Shown piece by piece: positions 55,057-59,459 of a stretch of 64,000 nt of DNA. This DNA is from Rhizobium tropici CIAT 899 (lineage in GTDB: Bacteria > Pseudomonadota > Alphaproteobacteria > Rhizobiales > Rhizobiaceae): positions 1,167,001 through 1,231,000 of the forward strand of contig NC_020059.1 in the NCBI RefSeq assembly GCF_000330885.1. Reading direction: 5' to 3'. The first letter of the stretch is position 1, and each line of letters opens with the position of its first letter. The notes under the pieces were generated by a model. It had not been told where the DNA came from. It saw only the letters and a list, made by a program, of their open reading frames with translations, and ran no database searches. Made by a program: the position numbers and the translations under genes.

Positions 55057-55096
55057 CCCTCTCCCCGCGTGCGGGGAGAGGGTTAGGGTGAGGGGC
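55057..55096. repeat. GC-rich hairpin repeat between pip and cimA
   Basis: CCCTCTCCCCGC-gt-GCGGGGAGAGGG is a perfect 12-bp hairpin (55057-55082), followed by TTAGGGTGAGGGGC. This is a motif I have seen many times in intergenic regions of alphaproteobacteria. It forms the 3' border of the pip/GFA/DUF559 cassette and could end its transcript. Confidence 0.75.
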
Positions 55097-55106
55097 CTTA
55101 CTCGGC

Positions 55107-56531
<1,425 letters not shown>

Positions 56532-56539
<8 letters not shown>

Positions 56540-57023
56540 GGTGCTTCTCCTGTGGCCAGCTTGAGGTATCGTGATCGGGATGTTGATGATTGGAGAGCTT
56601 GATCGATATCGCACGATCCGAGCTATCCTCATCCGGTTCCATCGGCAGCGCATCGAGCGCCTGGAACCAGGTCATTTTTCCTGCGCGGTTCGATTGCGCA
56701 ACGGGTTGGACCAGCGCCGGCTCATCCAGTGAGCCAAGTGTCACATTGATAGAATCCGTGCCGGGCACATCATAGAACAAGGGTGTACCGCAGGTGCCGC
56801 AAAAGCCGCGACGCACAAGATCGGACGAATGAAACCAGGAGGGTTCGCCGCGTGTCAACTCGAAATCGACGCGCTTGGCACTCCCCAGTGGGAGGGCGTA
56901 ATTGCCGGATGCCTTCTGGCACATGCGGCAATGGCAAAGATGCGGATAGCCGAGCGCACCGGCGGTGCGATAACGAACCGCGCCGCATTGGCATCCGCCG
57001 CTAAATCCCGCTGCCATTGTCAT
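56532..57023 (-). CDS. GFA-family zinc protein (tandem copy 2)
   Basis: A 163-residue GFA protein with zinc ligands Cys11, Cys13, Cys30, Cys32, Cys35 and Cys75/Cys78, and the shared C-terminal HQHPDHDTSSWP. It is the most divergent of the three copies, differing at many positions between the ligands. Its start overlaps the copy 3 stop (ATGA) and its stop overlaps the copy 1 start, so translation is likely coupled. Confidence 0.9.
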
Positions 57024-57502
57024 TTGCTGCTCTCCAGAGGCCATGCCGCCGTATCGTGGTCAGGATGCTGATATGACACAAGTTCAAGCACGAAAGGCGC
57101 CTGCCCGGCGTCCTCTTCCGTGCGGTGTCCAGGCAGCAGATGCAGCCGATCGACGAAGCCGATCTTGGCTTCCGTGCCATATTGCACGACAGGCGGCAGT
57201 TGCGAGGGATCGTCGAAGGCACCGGCCGCGACTGCAATGCCATCGGGCGCCTCATAGGTCAGCGGTGTGCCGCAATCCCCGCAGAAACCGCGCTTTACGA
57301 AGTTCGACGATTGAAACGCCTTTCGCTCTCCGCGCGTCCAACTGAGTTCGGCGCCGCGCACCGAAACCAGCGGCGCATAATAGGCGCCGAATGCCTTCTG
57401 ACACATGCGGCAATGACAGATGGAGGCATCCTTCAGCTCGCCCCGCACCCGGAAGCGAACCGCGCCGCACTGACAGCCGCCGGTGTAGGTCGAGACGGTC
57501 AT
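57020..57502 (-). CDS. GFA-family zinc protein (tandem copy 3)
   Basis: A 160-residue GFA protein with Cys10, Cys12, Cys29, Cys31, Cys34 and Cys74/Cys77 (GFCGDCGTPL) and the shared YQHPDHDTAAWP end. The start ATG at 57502 overlaps the stop of the DUF559 gene (ATGA). The three copies are similar but clearly not recent duplicates. Confidence 0.9.
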   Translation of the reverse strand: MTVSTYTGGCQCGAVRFRVRGELKDASICHCRMCQKAFGAYYAPLVSVRGAELSWTRGERKAFQSSNFVKRGFCGDCGTPLTYEAPDGIAVAAGAFDDPSQLPPVVQYGTEAKIGFVDRLHLLPGHRTEEDAGQAPFVLELVSYQHPDHDTAAWPLESSK

Positions 57503-57867
57503 GATCTATCCTTTCCGGCGACGATGAGGATATGCATGCAGACGTTATCGATATCCTTGAGGACGTCGTCATTCCAGAAGCGCAGGACAGTCCAGCCGTC
57601 GGCTTCGAGACGGCGGGTGCGAACCTGGTCATAGGTCTGATCACGATCATTGCCGTGCTGGGAACCATCGACTTCGACGATGAGTTTTTCAGTAGGGCAG
57701 GCGAAATCGACGATATAACCGGCGATGGGCAGTTGGCGGCGAAAGCCGAGACCCATGAGGCGGTGTGCGCGCAATTCATTCCAGAGCCGAAGTTCCGCGT
57801 CCGTCATGACCTTGCGCATGCGGCGGGCGTTACTGCGGATTTTGGGCGGGACTGGAATATGCGGCAA
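57499..57867 (-). CDS. DUF559 (Vsr-like) endonuclease-domain protein
   Basis: A 122-residue PD-(D/E)xK nuclease-like domain. Conserved acidic residues are Asp54 (YIVDFA), Glu65/Asp67 (VEVDGSQH) and a C-terminal TVLRFWNDDV block typical of DUF559 and Vsr-type folds. I chose a TTG start at 57867 (LPHIPVPP), the usual opening in relatives; an ATG at 57819 is an alternative. The G-run that would act as Shine-Dalgarno lies inside the adjacent 50-bp repeat. Its stop overlaps the next GFA start. Confidence 0.8.
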   Translation of the reverse strand: MPHIPVPPKIRSNARRMRKVMTDAELRLWNELRAHRLMGLGFRRQLPIAGYIVDFACPTEKLIVEVDGSQHGNDRDQTYDQVRTRRLEADGWTVLRFWNDDVLKDIDNVCMHILIVAGKDRS

Positions 57868-57869
57868 GG

Positions 57870-57919
57870 TACCCCCCTTTGTCACTTTCGTGACATCTCC
57901 CCCACAAGGGGGGAGATTG
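57870..57919. repeat. 50-bp inverted repeat, arm 1 (at the DUF559 start)
   Basis: This arm contains GTCAC-tttc-GTGAC and TCTCCCCC-acaa-GGGGGGAGA, itself palindromic. Its reverse complement matches arm 2 (58011-58060) with one mismatch. On the minus strand it reads AAAGGGGGGTACC directly before the TTG start of the DUF559 gene. Confidence 0.85.
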
Positions 57920-58010
57920 TTAACCCGCGGCACTCGCTCGGCCCAAATGGACATCGAACTTGCGGTGACCAAGCCTAGTGATCTTGCGAAGACATGCGGC
58001 AAACTCCCCC

Positions 58011-58060
58011 CAATCTCCCCCCTTGTGGGGGAGATGTCACGAAAGTGACAGAGGGGGGTA
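58011..58060. repeat. 50-bp inverted repeat, arm 2 (after cysS)
   Basis: The reverse-complement copy of arm 1, seven bases after the cysS stop. The two arms flank a 91-base spacer. As RNA they would fold into a 50-bp stem, ending or insulating cysS and giving an RNase III-type target. Confidence 0.85.
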
Positions 58061-58067
58061 TAAAAAC

Positions 58068-59459
58068 TCACCGCTTGATCTCCCAAGTCGTGATGCGCTC
58101 GCTAGTCGCCGCATCCTTGCCGTCCTTGAGCTGGATGCCCATGGCCGTCAGCTCCTCGCGAAGCTTGTCGGCTTCGGCAAAATTCTTCGCCTTCAGCAGT
58201 TCAAGCCGCTGCCGCACCTTGGTATCGATCTCTGCGACTACAGCTTCGTCGATCTCCGCCTTCTTCGGCAGCAGGCCGAGAAGATCGGCGCTGGCCGCGA
58301 AGACCGACAGGAGGCTGGCATCGGCATTGGCGGCCTGTGCCAGGGCATGCAGTGCCTGGATGGCGGCAACGGTGTTGAGGTCGTCGCCGAGTGCGGCAAG
58401 CACTGTTTCATCCGGAGCCGCCCCACTTAGGTCGGCAGCCGGCCATTTGGCGATCAGCCGTTCCGCTTCCTCGAGGCGCTTCACCGAGAAGTCGATCGGC
58501 TCGCGATAATGCGTCATCAGCATGGCAAGCCTGAGCACCTCGCCCGGCCAGGTTCGGCCGCCGAGCTTGTCCGTCTGCAGCAGCTCATGGATGGTGACGA
58601 AATTGCCTTCCGATTTCGACATCTTGCGGCCTTCGACCTGCACGAAGCCGTTGTGCATCCAGACATTCGCCATCGCATGCGTGCCGTGCGCGCAGCGCGA
58701 CTGGGCGATTTCGTTCTCATGGTGCGGGAAGATCAGGTCGAGCCCGCCGCCATGAATGTCGAAGAGGTCGCCGAGATAGCGCCCGCTCATGGCAGAGCAT
58801 TCGATGTGCCAGCCTGGACGACCGCGGCCCCAGGGGCTTTCCCAGCCCGGCTCGTTCTCGTTCGACAGCTTCCACAGAACGAAATCGCCAGGGCTTTTCT
58901 TGTGTTCGTCGACGGCGACACGGGCGCCGGCCTGCTGCTCATCGAGATTGCGCTTCGAAAGCTGGCCGTAGTCGGCCATCGATTTGGTGTCGAACAGCAC
59001 CTCGCCGGCCGCTCGGTAGGCATGGCCCTTCTCGATCAGCGTTTCGATGATCGCGATCATCTCAGCGATATTGTCGGTCGCCCGCGGCTGTACTGTTGGC
59101 TCCAGGCAGCCGAGCGCCGTCGTATCCTCGCGGTACTGCCGCTCGGTCTTTTCCGTCACCAACCGGATCGCATCGTTCAGCGGCAAGCCGGGGTGATCGC
59201 GCAGCGCGCGCGCGTTGATCTTGTCGTCGACGTCGGTGATGTTGCGGACATAGGTGACCTGGCTTTCGCCGTAGACATGCCGCAGCAGCCGGAACAGCAC
59301 GTCGAAGACGATGGCCGGCCGGGCGTTGCCGATATGGGCGAAGTCATAGACCGTCGGGCCGCAGACATACATGCGGACGTTGTTGCGGTCGATCGGCTGA
59401 AAATCGACCTTTTCGCGCGTCAGCGTGTTGTAGAACTTCAATTGCGGCTCGGTGGCCAT
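58068..59459 (-). CDS. cysS: cysteinyl-tRNA synthetase CysS
   Basis: A 463-residue class I synthetase. The zinc ligand Cys33 in [13 protein letters not shown] at 42-45 (HIGH motif), a second zinc segment HIECSAM near 205 and KMSKS in [10 protein letters not shown] near 265 are intact. The ATG at 59459 (MATEPQLK) follows GGGAGAATG-type sequence. It charges tRNA-Cys. Its 3' end abuts the inverted repeat. Confidence 0.97.

Follow-up and report, generated by a model that had tools for sequence, protein, structure and literature searches.

Why should a short nuclease gene stand directly behind a pair of long inverted palindromes? The question arises at a locus of Rhizobium tropici CIAT 899 (contig NC_020059.1), in a 64,000-nucleotide (nt) stretch (positions 1,167,001 to 1,231,000) that we call the window. 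The gene encodes a nuclease of the DUF559 family (PF04480), and the palindromes in front of it are two arms of 50 nt each, 98% complementary (one mismatch), which with the 91 nt between them make up a 191-bp inverted doublet. An earlier note, made from the letters alone, described these copies correctly and likened them to repetitive extragenic palindromes (REPs) and REP-associated tyrosine transposases (RAYTs), a likeness that held in broader tests. Here, we report a specific and widespread association of DUF559 genes with inverted flanking arms that match each other; arm, gene, and arm can also be found together, as a single unit of ~500 bp, at unrelated sites.

The folding energy of the doublet strand was −128.4 kcal/mol, versus −69.5 ± 4.6 kcal/mol for shuffles (0/200 as low). 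A 62-base query containing the arm was searched against the 6.69-Mb genome and gave 51 matches, the last few weak; 48 lay on the largest contig (C1), where they formed 22 inverted doublets, the window doublet among them, and 4 short leftovers, which excludes a chance origin of the arm. Spacers measured 88 to 100 nt in 20 of the 22. The genome's second full DUF559 gene (L002) is flanked by a different palindrome (CCCTCTCCCC..GGGGAGAGGG, 36 copies in the genome), found upstream, directly past the stop codon, and once more; thus, two paralogs pair with two palindrome families. A third, partial match to the domain (E value, 3.9e-6) lies within a 778-amino-acid (aa) frame (L003; G000:C3:443342-443539).

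Of 109 PF04480 matches in the order Hyphomicrobiales, 84 domains fell within the stretches fetched, with few of the stronger matches missing; 79 with 300-bp flanks were counted and 5 were dropped (the window gene is outside the 79, and the genome's second DUF559 gene is included). Other genes in the same stretches, called with a simple longest-frame caller, served as controls. A hairpin with a pyrimidine-rich 5' arm lay within 300 bp of 72/79 DUF559 genes and 70/798 control genes, with such hairpins on both sides in 39/79 and 1/798, respectively. Hairpins numbered 0.87 per 200 bp adjoining DUF559, 0.09 in the next 200 bp, and ~0.02 further out. Purine-first hairpins showed no comparable excess (2/79 versus 14/798), and mixed hairpins were similar in both sets (65/79 versus 633/798). 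Flanking hairpins compared with each other's reverse complement had a mean edit distance of 4.1, versus 9.1 when permuted (0/2000 as low); the inverted orientation fitted better in 48 of 71 pairs and the direct one in 14, with 9 ties.

For the phylum, in which 78/299 genomes had PF04480 at an E value of 1e-15, 61 domains in 60 stretches were hand-picked among the matches listed, and all 61 were counted. Pyrimidine-first hairpins were found in 23/28 (controls, 27/296) and 28/33 (controls, 32/314) in two Pseudomonadota groups outside Hyphomicrobiales; the palindromes that the earlier note mentioned beside other alphaproteobacterial DUF559 genes are thus real, and the link extends beyond that class. 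The strict detector left 18 locus identifiers among 145 domains unflagged; these were kept as misses, and most bear the same palindrome kind by eye. Inheritance could account for such a link at one locus alone, and the hairpins might then be terminators or common intergenic repeats lying there by coincidence. This is highly improbable given the low rates in control genes and in intergenic gaps of ≥100 bp away from DUF559 (52/777 with a pyrimidine-first hairpin), the single both-sided control, and the presence of at least one flanked DUF559 gene in 22 of the 23 families sampled in the order.

The link also holds between genomes. Two palindrome patterns were searched in 121 Hyphomicrobiales genomes, where the reversed patterns, run as controls, gave 0 to 2 hits per strand. 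In this set, PF04480 is patchy (54/121 genomes, up to 8 matches per genome). At least three palindrome copies occurred in 42/49 genomes with DUF559 (E value of 1e-9 or better) versus 8/72 others (p 3e-17). Across 15 families with both kinds of genome, palindromes were more numerous in the DUF559 genomes in 12, fewer in 2, and tied in 1. Palindrome copies rose in number with the DUF559 gene count (rho, 0.74 across all 121 genomes and 0.66 across the 54 with any match), and Y1_Tnp (PF01797, which includes the RAYTs) was unlinked to palindromes (9/23 versus 41/98 genomes). Contig C1 has four equal-scoring Y1_Tnp matches, probably identical IS200-type copies.

Closer to the window gene, the best 80 of 322 confirmed DUF559 loci were compared. 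An arm lay within 350 bp of the gene in 76/80 and on both sides in 25/80, with 2.99 arms per kb near DUF559 versus 0.049 far from it, bearing out the enrichment for which the earlier note had proposed a search. The four loci missed were two at a contig end on one side (L035 and L076), one with a tail remnant (L110), and one with nothing (L045). The order cysS-DUF559-GFA recurred in 53/80, and 4 more had the GFA gene but too little upstream sequence. The other 23 fell into 10 clusters without common flanking DNA; six of the ten representatives had both arms, with like linkers inside the arms, two had arms upstream only (L065 and L087), and two had near-gene arms downstream only (L078 and L101). 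One intergenic gap holds different palindrome families in related species (L048 and L066 versus L049), as at shared hot spots.

The unit was seen in genome G071, which has DUF559 copies at two unrelated sites with 93.6% identity across 499 bp; the shared stretch reaches from the outer border of one arm to slightly past the other. A sister species (G410) has DUF559 at neither orthologous site; one holds a whole lone arm, and the other holds hairpin 1 followed by different sequence. Outside the order, the plasmid collection gave 47 matching records, from which 16 were fetched, mainly for varied hosts, and 15 loci were assessed (L317 was left out). Palindromes were clear at 10, some one-sided, weak at 1, and absent at 4. 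On Deinococcus plasmids, inverted repeats enclose DUF559 in L314 (53 bp) and L316 (56 bp), terminal repeats like those bounding the G071 copies. A junction between hpaE and an oxidoreductase gene is occupied in L320; in L314 it is closed, and DUF559 sits elsewhere in that gene cluster, at a different junction. Some cyanobacterial loci also show the palindrome link. The repeat-bounded presence and absence that the earlier note had suggested looking for was therefore observed in G071/G410 and in Deinococcus; no DUF559 copy of the order was matched by an empty site entirely free of arms. On cyanobacterial plasmids (L312 and L318), DUF559 genes lie near DUF499/DUF1156 and BREX PglX genes, and in Neisseria gonorrhoeae a DUF559 gene (L321) is followed by repeated CTCTCTCCCTGTGGGAGAGAG palindromes.

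The chief rival account is that the palindromes spread by other means and serve as landing pads, DUF559 being a free-standing homing-type gene that comes to rest next to or between repeats already in place. In its favor, arm sequence is present and the gene is absent at both orthologous G410 sites, most doublets stand away from DUF559 (1 of the 22 on C1 is beside it), and the DUF559 fold and profile are akin to a homing endonuclease (fold matches to 3hrl, I-Bth0305I, and Vsr). We nevertheless consider it unlikely; paired flanking arms match each other better than they match other copies in the same genome, linker sequence inside the arms accompanies the gene, and palindrome number tracks DUF559 number, which is not so for Y1_Tnp, the one other enzyme family tested. 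The window gene occupies the intergenic space separating cysS from a GFA gene, not an intron or intein as is the trait of homing endonuclease genes; free-standing homing genes exist, so this position is compatible with homing. To our knowledge, there is no case of homing genes accompanied by a multicopy palindrome family. DUF559 proteins measure ~120 aa, and the EDxHD homing endonuclease I-Bth0305I is described (PMC3943268) as a long protein of several domains.

At the window itself, where the minus-strand order is cysS, doublet, DUF559, and GFA gene and arms stand on one side only (Table 1), the history looks different. At L045, the cysS-DUF559 gap is 15 bp rather than the usual ~200 bp; the doublet is absent and the gene is kept. 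Judged from these sequences, the DUF559 gene at the cysS locus looks old and vertically inherited, and the doublet looks like a loose part that comes and goes. The gene-facing tail of the near arm reads AAAGGGGGG-TACC-TTG, so the Shine-Dalgarno-like run (AAAGGGGGG) that the earlier note described is present, 4 bases before the TTG rather than 5. In most of the more distant lineages, the arm lies ~30 to 90 bp from the DUF559 start, and Shine-Dalgarno use in the window would therefore be a local turn. The frame does remain open across the repeat, as had been noted; the longer reading adds no further Pfam domain in a Pfam search, and the short start is common to relatives (residues 1 [M] and 3 [H] invariant in 22 aligned rows), so a repeat-encoded N terminus, suggested for relatives, is most likely a mis-call. 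Pfam families matched at the window were PF04480 and, below its cut-off, PF18741, and no Rfam family scored above cut-off in 57300-58500. E25, D54, E65, D67, H71, D80, and D101 of the protein are invariant in the 22 aligned rows; these acidic and histidine residues are candidates for the active site of an EDxHD/Vsr-type nuclease.

Table 1. Coordinates, within the window, of the DUF559 gene, the doublet in front of it, and related features
Feature	Position	Strand	Remarks
DUF559 (PF04480) nuclease gene	57499..57867	minus	TTG start at 57867; 122 aa; Pfam E value, 4.6e-40
Gene-proximal repeat arm	57870..57919	minus	G-run tail, 57870-57880; hairpin 2, 57881-57894 (GTCAC..GTGAC); hairpin 1, 57895-57917
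Doublet spacer, 91 nt	57920..58010		Weakly conserved among copies (18 own-genome copies aligned)
Inverted second arm	58011..58060	plus	Hairpin 1, 58013-58035; hairpin 2, 58036-58049; tail, 58050-58060
Open frame through doublet, 195 codons	57499..58086	minus	Probable false long start
Hairpin of second palindrome family (CCCTCTCCCC..GGGGAGAGGG)	55057..55082		Family flanking the genome's second DUF559 gene

A locus common to relatives, with an arm that gives a Shine-Dalgarno-like run, would suit a resident repair nuclease (Vsr- or MutH-like) acting on hairpins or mismatches, the nearby repeats being kept by selection, for example as regulatory elements. PMC12907096 describes a Caulobacter DUF559 protein, VsrA, that is a proposed mismatch-repair nuclease and triggers SOS in cells without the methylase of YGCCGGCR. 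Patchy presence at up to eight matches per genome, arm-bounded copies at new sites, and ten flank clusters are hard to reconcile with such residence, and we judge this explanation improbable. Unlike Vsr, the very-short-patch repair endonuclease, or YcjD, the DUF559 gene travels with palindromes. Hairpin 2 (GTCCGGCAGGAC) in Mesorhizobium arms (e.g., L071, upstream of 10001) resembles YGCCGGCR, a likeness that possibly reflects a link to the substrate.

The reading we prefer, at a probability of roughly 0.68, is that the 191-bp doublet belongs, as a non-autonomous copy, to a family of palindromic mobile elements whose nuclease is DUF559. The system would be mobile in the manner of REP/RAYT but driven by an unrelated nuclease of the EDxHD/Vsr type. 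Each arm has a G-rich tail and a pyrimidine-rich hairpin, to which a second hairpin may be added. The nuclease would recognize the arms and cut or nick at these or at target sites. Repair by the host would then copy or insert the DNA bounded by arms, whether the nuclease's own gene (in cis) or doublets (in trans). DUF559 would thus serve doublets much as RAYT transposases are supposed to serve REPINs (REP doublets). At the cysS locus in Rhizobium, the gene would now be resident, with the doublet in front supplying the Shine-Dalgarno-like run.

Likenesses to the REP/REPIN-RAYT system, as described in PMC3116915 and PMC3733652, are multicopy intergenic palindromes, mostly in inverted doublets with a less conserved spacer, and an enzyme gene near or flanked by repeats, with repeat classes tied to particular enzyme genes. 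Numerous inverted doublets at near-fixed spacing, an enzyme gene with its own kind of repeat on its flanks, and the coexistence of several repeat families were found here also. RAYTs are Y1/HUH tyrosine transposases (PF01797), whereas DUF559 is a PD-(D/E)XK/EDxHD-type nuclease, and REP repeats are GTAG-tagged, whereas the present arms are C/T-rich with a G-rich tail; because the enzyme is unrelated to RAYT, this would not be a RAYT system, though it would work like one. Like miniature inverted-repeat transposable elements and insertion sequences, the family combines a short non-autonomous doublet with a longer arm-gene-arm unit bearing terminal inverted repeats; unlike them, the unit codes for no known transposase type (DDE, HUH, serine, or tyrosine), each end holds one or two hairpins, and no target duplication was recognized. 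RIME elements of rhizobia are likewise intergenic mosaic repeats.

Several points weigh against the mobile-element reading. The 53/80 loci in one shared order are not independent and amount to few events, and in one of the ten other clusters (L087) cysS lies 1.3 kb away. Movement of the repeats by DUF559 is inferred here, as are cleavage, mobilization in trans, and the direction of change; arms are present in G410, so gain and loss are indistinguishable there, the G410 flanks have diverged at the junction, and target-site duplication was not recognized at the G071 sites. Of 198 arms, 121 have the G-rich tail directed at the gene and 27 have the mirror orientation, the rest being ambiguous; in Deinococcus (L314 and L316) the tail lies outside, away from the gene. 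Protein similarity and arm similarity correlate weakly (r, 0.21). Seven of the 49 DUF559 genomes have fewer than three palindromes of the two patterns, and the eight palindrome genomes without DUF559, one of which (G041) has 34 copies, may have lost the enzyme or use another. Purine-first hairpins were also in excess in the second group outside the order (4/33 versus 5/314), and plasmid loci L318, L319, L324, and L325, of the 15 assessed, had no palindromes. The mismatch-repair role proposed for VsrA also counts against this reading. The earlier note's idea of a repeat-nuclease mobile system stands in the broad tests and is qualified at its own locus, where the gene appears vertically inherited; most of the genome's doublets stand away from DUF559.

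Downstream of DUF559 in the window (56063-57502, minus strand), three consecutive overlapping small frames have similar sequences; the one adjoining DUF559 belongs to the GFA family (Pfam), the other two are alike by eye only, and the three are a possible tandem array.

No earlier report linking DUF559 to palindromic repeats was found in the literature searched, which was mostly open access and without preprints. It is an even bet, in our judgment, that these loci represent a new class of transposable element with an EDxHD/Vsr-type nuclease as its sole protein, comprising autonomous arm-DUF559-arm units of ~0.5 kb and swarms of non-autonomous doublets in at least three phyla, and supplying the missing enzyme for many untagged REP-like repeats. 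For annotation, the finding carries a warning that DUF559 starts may be read into repeats. Palindromic repeats are abundant in many bacterial genomes, and a candidate protein can now be named for a large pyrimidine-rich group of them; with it, a domain of unknown function gains a candidate substrate on which the nuclease can be tested.
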